From contig NZ_JACIDS010000005.1 in assembly GCF_014196455.1 (NCBI RefSeq), positions 248,001 to 312,000 of the forward strand: a stretch of 64,000 nucleotides of DNA. Direction: 5' to 3'. This DNA comes from Kaistia hirudinis. GTDB taxonomy: Bacteria; Pseudomonadota; Alphaproteobacteria; Rhizobiales; Kaistiaceae. The position numbers and the translations under genes are program-made. Shown here in pieces: positions 1,016 through 46,664 of this stretch. The number at the start of each line of letters is the position of its first letter. Within the stretch, counting starts at the first letter, position 1. The notes under the pieces are model-generated. The model did no database searches, was not told the origin of the DNA, and worked only from the letters and a program-made list of their open reading frames with translations.

Positions 1016-1716
1016 GCGAAGGCGCGCTCCCGGCGGATCCGGTCATAGGCGTCGTTGAGGGCGGCGACCTTCTGCGTCGCGATCGCGATGAACTCGGCCG
1101 GGACGCCGCGCGCGATCAGCCGGTCGGGATGCGTCTCCGAGACGATCCGCCGGTAATGCCGCTTCACGTCGTCGTTCGACGCCGACCGCTCGATGCCGAG
1201 GATCAGATAGGGATCGCCCTCCGCCGGCACGACATGGCGGCTCTCGATCCGGCTATAGGCCGCCTCGGGAATGCCGAAGATGACAGCGACCTGACGCAGA
1301 AAGGCGAGTTCGTCCTCATGCAGCGCGCCATCGGCCGTGGCGATGTGAAAGAGGCCGTCGACGATGTCCTCGAAGATCTCCGAGCCGTCGTCGAACAGGC
1401 CGCGCATGCGCCGCGCATAGGCGTCGAAGCCGGCCACGTCCTGCTTGGCGAGGTTGAAGAGGCGCGCGACATTGCGCTTCTCGCCTTCTGGAATCTCGAA
1501 CAATTCCTTGAACGCGGCGATCTCGTCGCTCGTCACGACACCGTCCGCCTTCGCCATCTTGGCCGAAAGCGCAATCATCGAGATCGAGAACGCGGCATGG
1601 CGCCGCTCCTCGGCCGTCCCGAAGGCCGAACGCACCGCCTCGACGACATGATCGACCAAGACGCAGCCGCCGGGGATGCGGCAGATGATTTCCCCCAGAC
1701 GATTCCAGAAACTCAT
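1012..1716 (-). CDS. TerB/J-domain (DjlA-like) co-chaperone
   Basis: A 234-residue protein with a TerB-like helical domain at about residues 40-155 (two acidic stretches, [10 protein letters not shown] and [11 protein letters not shown]) followed by a C-terminal J domain at about 167-232 with the diagnostic HPD tripeptide at 196-198. J domains stimulate DnaK ATPase. Unlike E. coli DjlA there is no clear N-terminal transmembrane helix, only a mildly hydrophobic start. It is the first gene of a two-gene unit with the amidase, which suggests, as inference, an envelope-stress link. Confidence 0.9.
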
Positions 1717-1779
1717 GGTGGCGCGATCATAGAGGACGATCGCGGCGACGACGAGACCGCAAGCCGCGGCGATATGCGC

Positions 1780-3138
1780 CTAGCCGGGCTTCGGCGTCAC
1801 GTCGGCTGGCGCGGCTGGCCTGATCGTGTCGTCCTTGATCTGGGCACTGCCGGCGACCGCCGGCGGGACGGGCGTTACGACCACTGTCTTCTTCTCGGCC
1901 TCCGAGAGACGCGCCTCCATCTGTCGGCTGGTCGACGTCAGCAGGTTGGGAACGAGCCGTTCCGAGAAGCCGGCGATGATCGCCCAGATGATGAGAAGCG
2001 CGAGATCCCTCGACGGCACCAGCGCGTTCGGCGTCAGGACGCCGAGGACCGTGGTGATACCCTTCGGGGCTTGCGCTGGCGCCGGCGGGGGGCGGCCGCC
2101 ATTCGGTTCGCCGCCGCCGCTCGGCTGCCCCGGCGCAGGCTGCGGCTTGACCGACGGATCAGCGGAAGCGGCTGGCTTGGCGGGCACGTCGGCTTTCACC
2201 GGGCCCGTCTGGACAACGCAATCGGCGGGACCGCCAAGGAGATCGCAGAAGGGGCCGCTCGCCAGATCCGATCGCGCCGCGACATAGGTCAGTTTCTGGA
2301 GGTCCGGAACGAGCGGACCGGTCAGGAGTTCCGAGGCGGCGAAAAAATAGATGAACATGGCGCCGACTGTGCCGATCAGCATCCGCAGCAGCACATTGGC
2401 GCGGCTGTAATAGGTGTCGGCGTCTCCGAGCGGCACCGACGTCTCGGTCACCTGCTGGAAATCCGTGTAGCGGCTGAACAATGCGCCGAGCGCGCCGAAG
2501 GTGACGGCCGTGTACAAGCCGTAATTGGGAAAGGTCGAGACGATCCAGACGATGCCGTCGCCGAGACCATGCAGCCCGGAATCAACCAGCGAAAGCCGGT
2601 AGACCAGGAAGACCAGGAAGGGGATGACGGCGAAGGTGACCGCCCAGCAGGTCAGCCGTCCGACCAGGGCGATCGCCTGCCCCCGGAGCGCCCTCACCTG
2701 CGCGCTGCGCAGGCCGAGATGCTGCAGATCGACGACCAGGCCGAGCAGGAAAGCCCGCTTGCGGGTATCGTCAATCGGCCCCGCGGACTGAAGCTGCGTG
2801 AATCGCGCACTGGTCTCGGCGATATCCGGCAGCCCGCGACGCTTGGCCTCCACCAGCTTGCGGGCGATCGCCTCGTCGAGTGCCGCGCCGCCAAGGGCAC
2901 TGATCAGGAGCTGTTCGACGACATTGAGGTCGGCGAGCGAGGAGCCGGCCGCGAGCCGCACCTCGATCTCCTGCTGGACGGCGGCAGGGAATGCAGTCCC
3001 GCCATTGGCCGCCGCCTGAATCTGCAGCCAGGTTGCGCGCAGCATGTTGCGCTGCTCATCGACCGAAGCTTGCTGTCCGAGCCCGTCCTGATCAAGCGCG
3101 CCTCGCGGCGAGCTGCCCACTCCATCCGTCGCCATCAC
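1780..3138 (-). CDS. Uncharacterised multi-pass membrane protein with proline-rich loop
   Basis: I do not recognise a named family for this 452-residue protein. The first 150 residues are soluble and helical. Hydrophobic segments follow at about 160-182, 212-230, 255-277 and 372-392. Between the third and fourth is a loop very rich in Pro, Ala and Gly (about 315-360) with one Cys pair. After the last helix is a motif [11 protein letters not shown] and then a charged tail ending in Pro/Lys. The overall plan suggests a small membrane assembly or sensor, but no function can be assigned. It faces away from the oxoprolinase gene across 138 bp of AT-richer DNA that probably holds both promoters. 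Confidence 0.75.
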
Positions 3139-3276
3139 AACCCCCGCGCATCTGCCACCAAGAATAGCAGATGTAACAAATACACCTTATACGGGTATTA
3201 TCCAGAGCTTGCGATCTTGTGGCGGCCTGCGATTGTTGCCCGTGGTTACGAAACGGTGCGCGAGGCGGCAATTTCG

Positions 3277-6200
3277 ATGACGACGGGCTGGGATTTCTGG
3301 ATCGATCGCGGCGGTACCTTTACCGATATCGTCGCGCGTGATCCCTCGGGGTCGCTCAGGGCCGCGAAGCTGCTCTCGGAAAACCCCGGCGTCTATCGCG
3401 ATGCGGCGGTCCAGGGCATTCGCGAGCTTCTGGGCCTTGCCGCCGGGGAGCCGATCCCGCCCGGCGCGATCCGCGCGGTGAAGATGGGCACGACGGTCGC
3501 GACCAATGCGCTGCTCGAGCGCAAGGGCGACCGGACGCTGCTCTTGATCACGCGCGGCTTCCGCGATGCGCTGGCGATCGGCTACCAGGCCCGCCCCGAC
3601 ATCTTCGCCAAGAAGATCATAAAGCCCGAGCTCCTCTATGAACGCGTCGCCGAGATCGGCGAGCGCGTGCGGGTCGACGGCACGATCGAGGCCGCGCCCG
3701 ATGCGGCCGAGATCGAGGCCGCGCTGCGCGCCGCGCTCGACGACGGCATCCGCTCGGTGGCGATCGTCTTCATGCATGCCTGGAAATTTCCGGCGCACGA
3801 AGAGATGGCCGCCGCGATCGCCCGGCGGATCGGCTTCCCGCAGGTCTCAGTCTCGCATGAGGTCTCGCCGCTGATGAAGCTGGTTGGCCGCGGCGACACC
3901 ACCGTGGTCGACGCCTATCTCTCGCCGATCCTGCGCCGCTATGTCGGCGAAGTCGCGCGGGAGCTCGGGGCTTCTCCGCTTGATGTTTCGGCGGAGGTAC
4001 CCCCCTCCCCGGCCTCCCCGCGCCTCATGTTCATGATGTCCTCGGGCGGGCTGACGGCCGCCGATCTCTTCCAGGGCAAGGACGCGATCCTTTCGGGCCC
4101 CGCCGGCGGCGTGGTCGCGGCGGTGGAGACGGCGCGGCAGGCGGGGTTCGGCGAGGTCATCGGCTTCGACATGGGCGGCACCTCGACCGACGTGTCGCAT
4201 TATGACGGCGCCTATGAGCGCTCCTTCGAGACCGAGGTCGCGGGCGTGCGCATGCGCGCCCCGATGATGCGCATCCACACGGTCGCGGCGGGCGGCGGCT
4301 CGATCCTCCATTATGACGGCGCACGCTTCCGCGTCGGGCCGGATTCGGCCGGCGCCGATCCCGGCCCCGCCGCCTATCGCCGCGGCGGACCGCTCACGGT
4401 CACCGACGCCAATGTCATGACCGGCAAGCTCCGGCCCGAATATTTCCCGGCGATCTTCGGCCCCGGCCGCGACCAGACACTGGATGCGGATGCCGTGCGC
4501 GCGCGGTTCGAAACGCTCGCCGCCGCGATCGGCGACGGCCGCGCGCCGGAGGAGATCGCGGACGGCTTCCTCAGAATAGCCGTCGAGAACATGGCGAACG
4601 CAATCAAGAAGATCTCGGTCCAGCGCGGCTATGACGTGACGTCCTATGTGCTGAACTGCTTCGGCGGCGCGGGCGGGCAGCATGCCTGTGCGGTCGCCGA
4701 CAGCCTCGGCATGACGCAGGTGCTGATCCACCCGTTCTCCGGCATCCTCTCCGCCTATGGCATGGGCCTCGCCGACATCCGCGCGCATCGCACGCGCGCC
4801 GTGGTGCGCAAGCTGGACGCGGAGACGCTGGCCGCGCTCAAGACGCTCGCCGAAACGCTGCAGGCCGATGTTGAATCGGAATTGCAGCAACAGGGCGTAA
4901 GCGATTCCAGCGTCTCGATCTTCGCCCGCGCGCATCTGCGCTATGACGGCACGGACACGCCGATCCCGATCGAGGTGTTTTCCAGCGAGGCAGCCAGTCG
5001 AGCCCCTCACCCCAGCCCTCTCCCGCCCGCGGGAGAGGGGGCGGCAGCCATTGAGCATGAGACCAATGAAGTCCACCGTCAGGACTCCCTCGCCCGCAAG
5101 GCGGGAGAGGGCTGGGGTGAGGGTCTTCCTTCACTTTGGCTTCCCCTCCCCGCGATGATCGCGGCATTCGAGGCGGCGCATCGCAAACAGTTCGGCTTCG
5201 TCTTCGAGGGCAAGGCGGTCGTGGTCGAGAGCCTTGAGGTCGAGGCCGTCGGCGGCGGCGCGGCGATTGTCGAACCAGCCGAGGCCGCCGCCCCGCACGC
5301 GGCGGAGACCGCGACACGGGCCCGCATCTTCTCGGGCGGCCGCCATCACGACGCCGGCGTCTACCGCCGCAGTGATCTCGCGCGGGGCGCGCTGATCGCC
5401 GGGCCGGCGCTGATCGTCGAGCCGCACCAGACCATCGTCGTCGAGCCCGGTTGGCAGGCCGAGATCACGGCGCGCGACCATGTCGTGATGCGCCGGACGG
5501 AGGCGGCGGAGCGCCATCGCGCGGTCGGCACCGATGCGGATCCCGTCATGCTGGAGGTGTTCAACAACCTTTTCATGTCGATCGCCGAGCAGATGGGCGT
5601 GACGCTGCAGAACACCGCCTATTCCGTGAACATCAAGGAGCGGCTCGATTTCTCCTGCGCCGTCTTCGATGCCGAGGGCCATCTCGTTGCCAACGCGCCG
5701 CATATGCCGGTGCATCTCGGCTCCATGGATCGCTCAGTGGAGACGATCATCGAGCTCAATCGCGGCACGATGCGGCCGGGCGACGTCTACGCGCTGAACG
5801 CGCCCTATAATGGCGGCACGCATCTGCCGGATATCACCGTCGTCTCGCCGGTCTTCGACGAAAAGGGCGAGAGCATCCTCTTCTTCGTCGCGAGCCGCGG
5901 CCATCACGCCGATGTCGGCGGCACGGCGCCGGGCTCGATGACGCCGCGCGCCACCACGGTCGACGAGGAAGGCGTGCTGATCGACAATTTCAAGCTGCTG
6001 GATCGCGGGCGTTTCCGCGAGGCCGAGCTGGTCGAACTTCTCACCCGCCACCCCTACCCCGTCCGCAACGTCGTCCAGAACGTCGCCGACCTGAAGGCGC
6101 AGATCGCGGCGAACGAAAAGGGCGTGGCCGAGCTCGCCCGCATGGTCGCGCATTTCGGCCTCCACACGGTCCGCGCCTATATGGGCCATGTCCAGGACAA

Positions 6201-7080
6201 TGCGGCCGAGAGCGTGCGCCGTGTCATCGACGCGCTGAAGGATTCGGAATTCGCCGTCGAGACCGACCAGGGCGCGGTGATCCGCGTGAAGATCACCGTC
6301 GACAAGGCGCGGCGCCAGGCAACCGTCGATTTCACCGGTACGAGCCCGCAGCAGAAGACCAATTTCAACGCGCCCGAGCCGGTCACCCGCGCCGCCGTGC
6401 TCTATGCCTTCCGCGTCATGGTCGAGGGCGACATCCCGATGAATGCCGGCTGCCTGCGTCCGATCGACATCATCATTCCGGAAGGCTCGATGCTGGCGCC
6501 GCGCTACCCGGCCGCCGTCGTCGCCGGCAATGTCGAGACGAGCCAGCACGTGACCAACGCGCTGTTCGGCGCGCTCGGCGCGCTCTCCTCGGCGCAGGGC
6601 ACGATGAACAACCTCACCTTCGGCAATGCGACGTACCAGTATTACGAGACGATCTGCTCCGGCTCGCCGGCCGGCGTGTTCAACGATGGCACCGGCTTCG
6701 ACGGCACTGACGGCGTGCACACCCACATGACCAATTCACGCCTCACCGACCCGGAAGTGCTGGAATTCCGTTTCCCCGTCCTGCTCGAGGACTTCCGCAT
6801 TCGCGCCGGCTCGGGCGGCAAGGGCCGATGGTCAGCCGGCGGCGGCACGACGCGCACGCTGCGCTTCCTCGAAGAAATGGACTGCGCCATCCTCGCCTCC
6901 CACCGCACGATCCGCCCGCACGGCCTGCTCGGAGGCGCGGAAGGCGCGCTCGGCAAAACCGAAGTCCGCCGGGCGGACGGCACGATCGAAACACTCGAAG
7001 GCTGCGATCAGACGGTGCTGAAGCCCGGCGAGGCCGTAATCATCACGACGCCGACCGGCGGGGGGTATGGGCGGGCGTAG
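3277..7080 (+). CDS. 5-oxoprolinase/hydantoinase, fused A+B subunits
   Basis: The predicted product (1267 residues) joins the hydantoinase/oxoprolinase A half (about 5-720, starting DRGGTFTDI and containing [16 protein letters not shown]) to the B half (about 750-1267, starting near [15 protein letters not shown]). Such enzymes use ATP to open 5-oxoproline or related cyclic amides. I chose ATG 3277 because homology begins at once. The frame is open for 2.1 kb upstream, but that stretch is antisense to two minus-strand genes. Residues about 576-616 are encoded by an in-frame palindromic repeat, described separately. The gene is monocistronic here. The exact substrate (5-oxoproline, hydantoin or N-methylhydantoin) cannot be read from the sequence. 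Confidence 0.92.
5004..5123. repeat. Palindromic repeat inserted in frame in the oxoprolinase gene
   Basis: Perfect 24-nt inverted arms lie at 5004-5027 (begins CCCTCACCCCAGCCCTC) and 5100-5123. They enclose 72 nt, giving a 120-nt element that is exactly 40 codons. The arm type (CCTCACCCC...CTCTCCC) matches the dispersed intergenic palindromes common in Hyphomicrobiales. Here it is translated as a Pro/Gly/Glu-rich stretch between the conserved [13 protein letters not shown] and [12 protein letters not shown] blocks, where homologues are expected to have only a short loop. No stop codon is introduced. Confidence 0.85.
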
Positions 7081-43768: not shown

Positions 43769-44447
43769 CATGCCCCTCCCCTGGCCGCTTTCCGGCTCGC
43801 TGGACCTTTCGCGCACCGCCGTGGTGGTGATCGACATGCAGACGGATTTCTGCGGACCGAATGGCTGGATCGACCGGCTCGGTCAGAGCATCGCGAACAC
43901 CCGCAAGCCCATCGAGCCGATCGCCCGCCTGCTCAAGGCGGCCCGCGCCGCCGGCATGACGATCATCCATACCCGCGAGGGGCATCGCCCGGATCTGACC
44001 GACCTGAACCCGGTCAAGCGCTGGCGCAGCCGCGCGCATGGCGTCGGCATTGGCGACGAAAGCAATCTCGGCCGCGCGCTGACGCGGGGCGAGCCGGGGC
44101 ATGACATCATCCCGGAACTCTATCCGGAGCCGGGCGAGATCGTGGTCGACAAGCCGGGCAAGAGCTCGTTCCACGCGACCGAATTCGACAATGTCCTGCG
44201 GGCTCGCGGCATCGAGGCGATCATCATCGCCGGCGTCACGTCGGACTGCTGCGTCCAATCCACGATGCGCGACGCATCCGACCTCGGCTATGACTGCATC
44301 CTCGTCACCGACGGGACGCAGGCGGTCGAGAACACCAATCACGAAGGCATGCTCGCCGTCATCGCGGCCCATGGCGGCCGCTGGGGCGCCTCGTCCACGG
44401 CTGACGAGATCAACGCTATGATCGCCAAGGTCGCGGAGGCGGCATGA
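43761..44447 (+). CDS. Cysteine hydrolase, biuret amidohydrolase (BiuH)-like
   Basis: A 228-residue isochorismatase-fold hydrolase with the full catalytic set: Asp in VVVIDMQTDFCG, Lys in VVDKPGKSSF, Cys in GVTSDCCVQST. Long identity to rhizobial BiuH-type enzymes is apparent in IIHTREGHRPDLTDLNPVKR. BiuH cleaves biuret to allophanate and ammonia; RutB-like ureidoacrylate hydrolysis is the alternative. It overlaps its inactive-looking paralogue by 4 bp and an allophanate-hydrolase-like amidase lies 0.8 kb downstream, supporting a biuret route. ATG 43770 is a possible later start. Confidence 0.87.
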   Translation: MADMPLPWPLSGSLDLSRTAVVVIDMQTDFCGPNGWIDRLGQSIANTRKPIEPIARLLKAARAAGMTIIHTREGHRPDLTDLNPVKRWRSRAHGVGIGDESNLGRALTRGEPGHDIIPELYPEPGEIVVDKPGKSSFHATEFDNVLRARGIEAIIIAGVTSDCCVQSTMRDASDLGYDCILVTDGTQAVENTNHEGMLAVIAAHGGRWGASSTADEINAMIAKVAEAA

Positions 44448-45073
44448 TGAAGACGTTCCAGCCCGTCGCCTCCCGCCCCTATGCCTGGCCCTATACCGGC
44501 GCCTGGACGCTTGCCGACACGGCGCTGTTCCTCGTCGATTTCCAGCGCGAAGCCGTCGCCGAAACCAAGGCCGAGGCCACCGTCGCGGCGCTCGCGCCGC
44601 TGCTCGCCGCCTGGCGTGCCGCGGGCGGCTTCGTGATCCATGGACGGCGCGGCTTCGATCCGCATGTCGGGCTGCCGCGCGTGCTCGCCGCGCGCAACGC
44701 GGCCCGGCCGCTCGACCGCATCCTGCCGCGCGGCAGCGAGGGCTGGGAGATCGTACCCGAACTCGCGCCGGTCGACGGCGAGCCCGTGATCGAGCATGCC
44801 GGCGACAATGCCTTTCTGGGCACGGACCTCAATTTCCTGATCGAGCAGCGCAAGATCGCCAACCTCGTCTTCGCAGGCCTCAGAACCGAAGGCGCGGTGC
44901 ACGCGACCATGCGCGCGGCCAATGATGTCGGGCTCGAATCCCTCCTGCTCGAGGACGGCACGACCACCGATCTCGCCGGCGCCAAGGACACGATCCTCAA
45001 CATCACCCGCTTCGGCTCCGGCCTGTTCGGCACGACCACGACGATCGCCGTACTGCGGGACGCGATCGCCTGA
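44444..45073 (+). CDS. Isochorismatase-fold pseudoenzyme
   Basis: A 209-residue paralogue of the preceding hydrolase (YAWPYTGAWTLADTALFLVDFQ). The catalytic Asp is kept (FLVDFQ), but the Lys is replaced (PVIEHAGDNAF instead of VVDKPGKSSF) and the nucleophile Cys position reads Ala (GLRTEGAVHAT instead of GVTSDCCVQST). Hydrolysis by the family mechanism is therefore unlikely. The rest of the fold is well conserved and the 4-bp overlap fixes its expression to the active enzyme, so a scaffold or regulatory subunit is plausible. Confidence 0.8.
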   Translation: MMKTFQPVASRPYAWPYTGAWTLADTALFLVDFQREAVAETKAEATVAALAPLLAAWRAAGGFVIHGRRGFDPHVGLPRVLAARNAARPLDRILPRGSEGWEIVPELAPVDGEPVIEHAGDNAFLGTDLNFLIEQRKIANLVFAGLRTEGAVHATMRAANDVGLESLLLEDGTTTDLAGAKDTILNITRFGSGLFGTTTTIAVLRDAIA

Positions 45074-45100
45074 GATCGGCCGAGCTATCTCGCATCTCTT

Positions 45101-45223
45101 CACCTCTCCCTGAGGGGGAGGTCGGCCCGAAGGGCCGGGAGAGGGTTTACGGCCCCTCCGGCGAGTTCCCTCAATCCTCTCCCGCCGGCCTGCGGCCGTC
45201 GACCTCCCCCTCAGGGGGAGGTG
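45101..45223. repeat. Intergenic palindromic repeat
   Basis: Nearly identical inverted arms of about 45 nt, at 45101-45145 (begins CACCTCTCCCTGAGGGGGAG) and 45176-45223, each with an internal hairpin CTCCC/GGGAG, enclose a 30-nt centre. It fills the gap between the pseudoenzyme and the amidase gene. The type is a dispersed REP/MITE-like element, related in composition but not identical to that at 5004-5123. Confidence 0.8.
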
Positions 45224-45245
45224 AAGGAAGTAGCCCCCGGAAGCC

Positions 45246-46664
45246 ATGATGACATCCCCCTGGTCCCCTGAAACCGGTTCGCTCGATCTCCAGACCCTCG
45301 GCCGCCTCTATCGCAGCGGCGCGCTAACGCCCAGCGCCGTCGTCGATGCCGTCTATGACCGCATCGCGCGGCGCGGCGACGATCACGTCTGGATCTATCT
45401 GGCCCCGCGCGCGCAGCTCCTTTCCGAAGCCGCGGCGCTTGAGGCTGCCGGACCGACCGACGATCCGCTGTGGGGCATTCCCTATTCGGTCAAGGACTGC
45501 AACGACGTCCCCGGGATGCCGACGACCAACGCGCTGCCCGAGATGGCCTATGTGCCGGAGACCACGGGACAGGCGATGCAGCGCCTTGCCGAGTCCGGCG
45601 CGCTCTGCCTCGGCAAGGTCAATATGGACCAGTTCGGCGTCGGCCTCGTCGGCGTGCGCACGCCCTATGGCGCCTGCTCGTCGGTGTTCCATGAGGACTT
45701 CATCTCAGGCGGGTCGAGTTCCGGCTCGGGCGTCTCGGTCGCGGCGGGCCTCTGCTCCTTCTCGGTCGCCAATGACGCGGCGGGATCGGGCCGCGTGCCG
45801 GCGGCCTTCAACAACATTGTCGGGCTCAAGCCGACGCCGGGCTTCATCTCCAATTCCTCGGTCTCCGGCGGCGGCTCGCTGAAGAGCGCCGAGACCATGA
45901 CCGTCTTCGCGCTGACCACCGCCGACGCTGTCGCCGTGGGGCGGCGCATGGGCGGCTACGATGTCAGCTATGAATTCTCCAAGCCTGAGGCCAACACGGT
46001 CGATCTGACGATCAGCGCCCTCCCCGCCCGCTTCCGCTTCGGCGTTCCCGGCGGATCGGCGCTGCGCTTCTTCGGCGACGACGAGGCCGCCAAGCTGTTC
46101 GCCGGGGCAATCGCCCGGCTCGAAGCCATGGGCGGCACGCGCGTCGAGGTCGATTTCACGCCGTTCGAAGAGACGCAGAAGCTGCTCTATGGCGGGCCGT
46201 TCATCGCCGAGCGGGCGATCGCGATGGACGCGGTCGTCGAAAAATATCGCGACGTGATCCATCCGGTCACGCTGCAGATCCTGGAGACGAGCAGCGATTA
46301 CAGCGCCAAGGACGTCTTCGCCGCGATGCATCGCATCGCCGCGCTGAAGCGCGACACGCGCGCGACCTGGGCCGATATCGACGTGCTGGTCGTGCCGACG
46401 ACGCCGACGATCTACCGCAAAACGGAGATCCTCGCCGATCCGATCAAACTGAATGCGCAGCTCGGCATCTATACGAACTTCGTCAATCTGATGGGCCTCT
46501 GCGGCATGGCCGTGCCGAACGGTTTCCGCCCGGACGGGCTGCCGCAGGGCGTCACCTTCCTCGCGCCTTCGTGGCAGGATGCGAAGGTGGCGAGCTATGG
46601 CGCCGCCTTCCATAAGGCGACAGGCCTGACGCTCGGCGCCACCGGCAATCCGCAGCCGGACTGA
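45246..46664 (+). CDS. Amidase-signature enzyme, allophanate-hydrolase-like
   Basis: A 472-residue amidase-signature hydrolase with the Ser-cisSer-Lys triad: Lys in PYSVKDCND, Ser pair in ISGGSSSGSGV and nucleophile in NDAAGSGRVPAAFNNIVGLKP. The TAGSGR-type block with NNIVGLKPT is typical of allophanate hydrolases (AtzF), but the usual C-terminal extra domain (to about 600 residues) is missing. Following a BiuH-like gene, it would turn allophanate into ammonia and CO2. Tandem ATGs at 45246 and 45249; GGAAG favours the second. Confidence 0.85.
   Translation: MMTSPWSPETGSLDLQTLGRLYRSGALTPSAVVDAVYDRIARRGDDHVWIYLAPRAQLLSEAAALEAAGPTDDPLWGIPYSVKDCNDVPGMPTTNALPEMAYVPETTGQAMQRLAESGALCLGKVNMDQFGVGLVGVRTPYGACSSVFHEDFISGGSSSGSGVSVAAGLCSFSVANDAAGSGRVPAAFNNIVGLKPTPGFISNSSVSGGGSLKSAETMTVFALTTADAVAVGRRMGGYDVSYEFSKPEANTVDLTISALPARFRFGVPGGSALRFFGDDEAAKLFAGAIARLEAMGGTRVEVDFTPFEETQKLLYGGPFIAERAIAMDAVVEKYRDVIHPVTLQILETSSDYSAKDVFAAMHRIAALKRDTRATWADIDVLVVPTTPTIYRKTEILADPIKLNAQLGIYTNFVNLMGLCGMAVPNGFRPDGLPQGVTFLAPSWQDAKVASYGAAFHKATGLTLGATGNPQPD

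Follow-up and report, generated by a model that had tools for sequence, protein, structure and literature searches.

An in-frame Box C/PIT dimer in a predicted loop of a hydantoinase-type gene of Kaistia hirudinis

Palindromes within genes and the Box C/PIT element

The best-known palindromes that code for protein are those of Rickettsia. REPIN and BIME elements, moved by RAYT, are head-to-head pairs of short palindromes. The review by Delihas (PMC2229807) describes the Rickettsia palindromic elements (RPE) as palindromes of 105–146 bp that are inserted in frame. Di Nocera et al. (2013) reported intragenic GTAG/CGTC REPs in several species, and by their account recB of two Xanthomonas species carries REPs at about one site (PMC3733652). 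Alphaproteobacteria have the CIR elements of Caulobacter and Brucella, double inverted repeats of about 110 bp (PMC2229807) that carry GANTC and are described as strictly intergenic (PMC10969869). In-frame palindromes are thus a known kind of feature, since RPE and intragenic GTAG/CGTC REPs precede the case described here.

The intrastrand triplex motif TM_ECO is the former Box C or PIT element, of which Holder et al. (2015) listed 3610 copies across 262 proteobacterial genomes (PMC4666352). According to the same paper, the motif is always intergenic in Escherichia coli MG1655, where five inverted pairs are described, each made up of one type A unit (TTA) and one type B unit (CCG); the authors also tie intrastrand-triplex motifs to instability. 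The text under PMC4666352 contains no word with 'rhizob'. A literature search, with most subscription papers outside its scope, found neither published in-frame Box C/PIT dimers nor published repeated insertion of different repeats into several loops of one enzyme.

The host gene and its inverted repeat

The window analysed here is a stretch of 64,000 nucleotides from K. hirudinis, whose genome is called G000; G000 to G013 denote the 14 species of the genus that were examined. The features of the locus are as follows.

3277–7080, plus strand: hydantoinase/oxoprolinase-type fusion gene with the A half ahead of the B half, host of the insert (1267 aa)
4988–5131, plus strand: approximate insertion, 144 nt more than in the empty G004 linker (a length difference of 48 codons); ends inferred
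4996–5121, plus strand: codons of residues 574–615, with no predicted secondary structure and pLDDT below 50 (AlphaFold2)
5004–5039, minus strand: left Box C/intrastrand-triplex motif (exact pattern match)
5040–5086, no strand: spacer of 47 nt, 79% identical to the spacer of copy L158 in G004
5087–5123, plus strand: right Box C/intrastrand-triplex motif, CCCTCGCCC variant with one mismatched triplet (exact pattern match)

The start of the gene was set by choice at the ATG at 3277, inside a longer mechanical ORF (1129–7080). The host protein matches the Pfam profiles Hydant_A_N, Hydantoinase_A, Hydant_A_C, and Hydantoinase_B, and its top named relatives come from Hyphomicrobiales and neighbouring Alphaproteobacteria. 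By sequence, its closest solved relative is the N-methylhydantoinase 7hk5_A (E 4.8e-119), and the top structural match of the A-half model, 9h03_A, is an enzyme of the same kind (E 2.3e-42). An earlier note on this DNA had called the gene an oxoprolinase. This holds as a superfamily name and not as a specific activity, because all five NCBIfam equivalog matches lie far under their cut-offs.

The arms of the repeat (5004–5027 and 5100–5123) are 24 nt each, complementary at every position and 72 nt apart, and they are still 96% complementary when lengthened to 27 nt. In 60 simulated windows (first-order Markov) no perfect inverted repeat within 260 nt was longer than 16 nt; the inverted repeat described in the earlier note is a real feature of the gene and not a product of chance. 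The hairpin predicted for the insert is strong (-95 kcal/mol over 135 nt). The further claims that the repeat is in frame and leaves the gene open are likewise confirmed, the ORF 1129–7080 being uninterrupted and all four Pfam domains matched. The gain had been given as exactly 40 codons, which is right for the span from arm to arm; the net gain over G004 is 48 codons.

What kind of repeat is it?

For the motif pattern CCCTCKCCC-N1-9-GGGAGAGGG-N2-4-GGGTGAGGG there are two matches in the window and none in 100 shuffles. Each arm is part of one Box C/PIT intrastrand-triplex motif, and the minus-strand and plus-strand motifs together make a head-to-head inverted pair. By sequence the feature is a head-to-head Box C/PIT dimer, 'triplex' being a name taken from the motif. 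A right motif with one mismatched triplet corresponds to the variant called 'mm' in PMC4666352. The likeness to Box C/PIT lies in both arms, which fit CCCTC(T/G)CCC-loop-GGGAGAGGG-3 nt-GGGTGAGGG, and in the occurrence of inverted pairs. Unlike the pairs of E. coli, both Kaistia units have an identical second loop (CTG), and the dimer lies in frame within an open gene instead of between genes.

The element is RPE-like in behaviour and Box C/PIT by sequence. Set beside RPE by description, it is palindromic, 120–144 bp long and placed in frame, so that it would be translated into additional residues, and an in-frame insertion within a conserved protein gene is seen in the open ORF, the Pfam domains, and the lengthened linker. 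Unlike RPE, which are noted for many genes, the repeat lies clearly in frame inside genes at 2 of 31 sites in G000. The comparison with RPE drawn in the earlier note is apt for what the insert does, and it fails for the share of copies inside genes.

Several other families were considered. GTAG/CGTC REPs are also short palindromes, often dimers, within known genes; in 24 copies inspected by eye no GTAG/CGTC tag stands beside the hairpins, and CGTC occurs in some spacers only. Here, unlike in the cases described for those REPs, repeats of several types occupy three loops of one enzyme. The window copy contains a GACTC, as a CIR element might, and GANTC is found in just 3 of the 24 copies. The head-to-head arrangement recalls REPIN/BIME; a profile search of G000 for the Y1 transposase (Y1_Tnp, PF01797) gave no match, while 5 of 14 control genomes matched. 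Br-REP1/2 of Bradyrhizobium have a different core sequence, as given in PMC5082802. Among Rfam families there were 11 matches at E ≤ 1, all to microRNA-precursor models, which are read as chance because the hairpin is long and every score is below gathering.

Empty sites and separate insertions

The linker that holds the insert was measured between the RYDGTD and FEAAH-type blocks. It has 76 residues in G000, 83 in G002 and G009, and 28–39 in the other 11 species of the genus, so that the insert is present in 3 of 14 and the excess of G000 over the empty linkers is 37 to 48 codons. G004 is the nearest species to G000 among those compared (88.5% identity over core columns); its linker is empty at 28 residues, from which the net gain of 48 codons follows. 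The alignment of homologues that the earlier note proposed as a check shows the insertion clearly: same-genus homologues either do not have the residues or, in G002 and G009, have a palindrome of their own, and no stop is seen among the same-genus matches listed, so there is no sign of the repeat breaking the gene in sister species.

In the nucleotide tree, G000 and G004 are separated from the rest at 100, and G002 with G009 joins the empty G012 at 95 and the empty G006 at 100. The corresponding values are 100, 59, and 100 in the protein tree, and 1.0, 0.242, and 0.998 in a FastTree protein tree. The position of G012 beside G002 and G009 is thus weak in the protein trees, and the grouping with G006 is firm.

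When the same linker is filled in distant members of a genus, has it been filled once or more than once? The spacers of G002 and G009 have 84 nt as against 47 nt in G000, and their alignment scores with the G000 spacer are reached by 108 and 86 of 500 shuffles, as expected of unrelated sequences. The left motif of G009 falls outside the exact pattern. As the spacers are unrelated and the tree positions differ, separate insertions are the simplest reading: G000 and the G002/G009 lineage probably acquired members of one repeat family independently in the same linker. The alternative is an insert ancestral to the genus, precisely lost in most species and kept by G000, G002, and G009. Such a history would explain why linker and motif family are the same in all three, but along the tree the insert would have to be lost in frame several times independently, and it sits badly with spacers that are alike only as shuffles are when that of G000 matches copies elsewhere; it is quite unlikely.

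Two more assemblies with a comparable layout (G002 and G009) also bear on whether the insert is real coding sequence. An insert that is not really translated, through a sequencing or assembly error or in a dying gene, is highly improbable: the ORF is open over 1267 codons and the rest of the G002/G009 gene has a dN/dS of 0.07. The insert is presumably translated, and the enzyme that carries it would be expected to stay active.

Copies across genomes and presumed mobility

Exact motifs are present in 13 of the 14 genomes of the genus, and a backwards-pattern control gave none in any of the 14. From most to fewest, the genomes and their counts are G009 (105), G011 (86), G002 (84), G012 (80), G006 (64), G013 (43), G004 (32), G000 (10), G010 (5), G008 (4), G003 (4), G007 (3), G005 (1), and G001 (0). 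The number of exact motifs therefore swings from 0 to 105 inside one genus. A DNA search with the insert found matches at E ≤ 0.001 in all 14 genomes; in G000 there were at least 69 at E ≤ 10, both strands counted, and at least 27 at E ≤ 0.001. Copy counts from such DNA searches are lower bounds wherever first-look candidates outnumbered those scored. The search for related copies suggested in the earlier note thus reveals a dispersed repeat.

The stronger matches in G000, taken from the search with this insert and from that with the S1 insert of G010, cluster into 31 sites, weaker matches and opposite-strand duplicates excluded, and coding flanks were judged by a codon-usage score trained on same-genus copies of the hydantoinase-type enzyme. 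Two of the 31 sites are clearly in frame within genes, the hydantoinase-type gene and cobN. One further site (L023) is open across the repeat with a weak codon-usage score. Several others are open across the repeat from one side, as may happen by chance where G+C is high or where a protein is extended at its C-terminus, and the remaining sites appear intergenic by the codon-usage score alone. The count of copies inside and between genes that had been proposed gives a clear answer for two sites and weak, one-sided or intergenic-looking ones for the rest. An excess of lengths divisible by three, also proposed as a check, is not seen: with approximate ends, 7 of 21 copies outside the hydantoinase-type gene have such a length, which amounts to no preference. 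Open frames per copy average 3.0 of 6 in 24 copies, equal to shuffles (3.0), and so the repeat shows no sign of being built for coding.

These 24 aligned copies comprise 20 from G004, G002, G009, and G012, one from G000, and three in-gene copies. In most of them the extended ends follow GCAAGRCCC...GGGTCTTGC, and the insert resembles the other copies in its extended ends. The score of the G000 spacer against that of L158, which lies elsewhere in G004 (79% identity), is reached by none of 500 shuffles. Against 21 copies outside the gene, ten scores are reached by no shuffle and nine by 1–7 of 500, while those for L173 and L176 are reached by 50 and 62; the 20 copies were picked by hand among full-length matches, a selection that favours similar spacers. 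G004, G002, and G009 have dimers of this layout dispersed through their genomes.

The repeat would therefore seem to move as one composite unit, dimer and spacer together. Mobility is deduced from dispersal, as neither a target-site duplication at the insert nor, in the search for the Y1/RAYT family, a transposase was identified. Might template switching at one hairpin instead have created the palindrome on the spot? Arms that are perfect over 24 nt are what hairpin-templated correction would leave, and Holder et al. link the motifs with instability (PMC4666352). A local origin is very unlikely, since the spacer as well as the arms matches copies elsewhere and since dimers arranged in this way are scattered through G004, G002, and G009. 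The dispersed composite unit, the empty site in the sister species and the open frame are matters of observation. The explanation that fits best is that a Box C/PIT dimer with its 47-nt spacer was very probably inserted as a unit and tolerated as an in-frame loop of the hydantoinase-type gene.

Structure and constraint of the loop

The AlphaFold2 model of the A half, built with 35 sequences, is of middling confidence (mean pLDDT 75.8). Residues 574–615 are flanked in it by a strand (563–566) and a helix (624–639). Six further segments of the A half also have pLDDT below 50. The earlier note had placed the insert between two conserved blocks, where a short loop is expected; the prediction of an unstructured stretch with pLDDT below 50, in a linker of variable length, agrees with this.

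Has the loop been recruited for a function, for example to bind a partner, to stabilise the enzyme or, as an RNA hairpin, to make the ribosome pause between the enzyme parts? G002 and G009 have both kept the insert in frame after diverging, and a strong hairpin is predicted (-95 kcal/mol for 135 nt). Between G002 and G009, the 58 codons of the insert show 4.5 synonymous and 5.5 non-synonymous changes (dN/dS 0.43), and the other 1184 codons show 212.5 and 48.5 (dN/dS 0.07). This weaker constraint, drawn from ten changes only, points to tolerance of the loop rather than to tuning. Moreover, 11 of 14 species of the genus do without the insert, and relatives fill the same loops with different repeats; recruitment is accordingly unlikely, and the word 'domesticated' of the earlier note, in the sense of a useful part, is not supported.

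In the pair L032/L033, dS is 0.10 in the insert and 0.28 in the rest of the gene, with few sites available. The low value might reflect hairpin-templated correction.

Other loops of the enzyme and a second gene

Are other loops of the enzyme filled in the same way? In 106 homologous proteins (ORF >1000 aa), anchors could be scored in 61 for S1 (near residue 240), in 104 for S2 (the insert linker), and in 51 for S3 (B half). The linkers that exceed the median by 15 residues or more number 12, 7, and 2, of which 8, 4, and 1 have a folding z ≤ -4 against single-base shuffles. The long linkers of L042, L046, and L072 (S1) and of L042 and L093 (S2) do not fold beyond chance. Uninserted control linkers have a mean z between -0.5 and -0.75; their lowest values are -3.5, -3.8, and -4.6. 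Fitch parsimony gives 7 changes at S1, 3 at S2, and 2 at S3 (58, 102, and 51 of 106 leaves scored); these may be gains or losses, and L087 (-2.5, -3.2) and L101 S2 (-2.9) were counted as repeats by choice.

All three inserts tested for copy number are multi-copy in their own genomes, in counts that include the insert itself. The L087 S3 insert has at least 70 matches in its own genome, at least 79 and at least 70 in two other Mesorhizobium genomes, and at least one in Aminobacter. For the L105 S2 insert there are at least 8 in its own genome and at least 4 in that of L101. The G010 S1 insert has at least 37 in its own genome, at least 67 in G008, at least 36 in G000, at least 12 in G005, and none in G020 among the scored candidates. 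Relatives carry palindromic inserts at two further loops of the enzyme, S1 and S3. A model of the L087 B half places the S3 insert between two strands, where confidence is low (122–164) and one short helix is predicted. At S2, two Xanthobacteraceae MAGs that are sisters in the tree, L101 and L105, have other repeat-like inserts, which may share one origin.

Some genes have more than one filled loop. In L087 (Mesorhizobium prunaredense), two loops of one enzyme gene have inserts that begin in the same repeat type, and in L101 two loops of the hydantoinase-type gene are filled by repeat-like inserts.

The second in-frame copy in G000 lies in a gene for a CobN/Mg-chelatase protein (PF02514, E 1.9e-169 over 975 residues). 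Its insert, between two conserved blocks, has a second palindrome beside a Box C-like unit. Of 23 cobN genes, five have an exact Box C motif within the ORF, and all five are from the genus (G008, G010, G002, G009, and G012); in G002 and G010 the motif falls between two matched protein pieces, at the same place as the insert of G000. The hairpin is read in the frame PLPxAGEG in 7 of 7 cases, namely the five cobN motifs and the exact minus-strand units in hyuAB of G000 and G002.

This cobN gene of G000 (L024, G000:C1:453731-456774) has two loops with in-frame repeat-like inserts. One joins the Box C-like unit to a palindrome starting CGTCATCCCGG, with a resemblance to CGTC REPs by eye. The later loop is variable too, and repeat-like.

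How might such inserts arise and persist? A dispersed Box C/PIT dimer would have entered the loop-coding part of the gene after G000 split from its nearest sister, G004. It would have survived if its length and frame left the gene open and the loop tolerated extra disordered residues. A single filter, by which only what is in frame and lies in a loop persists, could account for different palindromes at three loops of the enzyme and in cobN. We lean slightly towards a wider proposal for free-living Hyphomicrobiales: that unrelated palindrome families, triplex-type Box C dimers included, have entered large enzymes in frame again and again, at loops that are permissive and are hit repeatedly (three in the HyuAB type and at least one in CobN), and are in this way a main source of loop length evolution there.

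For Rickettsia, genome decay is in our reading an easy account of such insertions; here the genomes have 4–7 Mb and the repeat is a different one. Separate hits in one loop are natural replicates, which provide empty and filled versions of an enzyme at about 80–90% identity. They open two questions to testing, the effect of the insert on the protein and the mobility of Box C/PIT.

The window also contains a second inverted repeat of equal score (45098–45226), with 27-nt arms and of another repeat type. It sits between a gene of the isochorismatase family (44444–45073) and an amidase gene (45246–46664).
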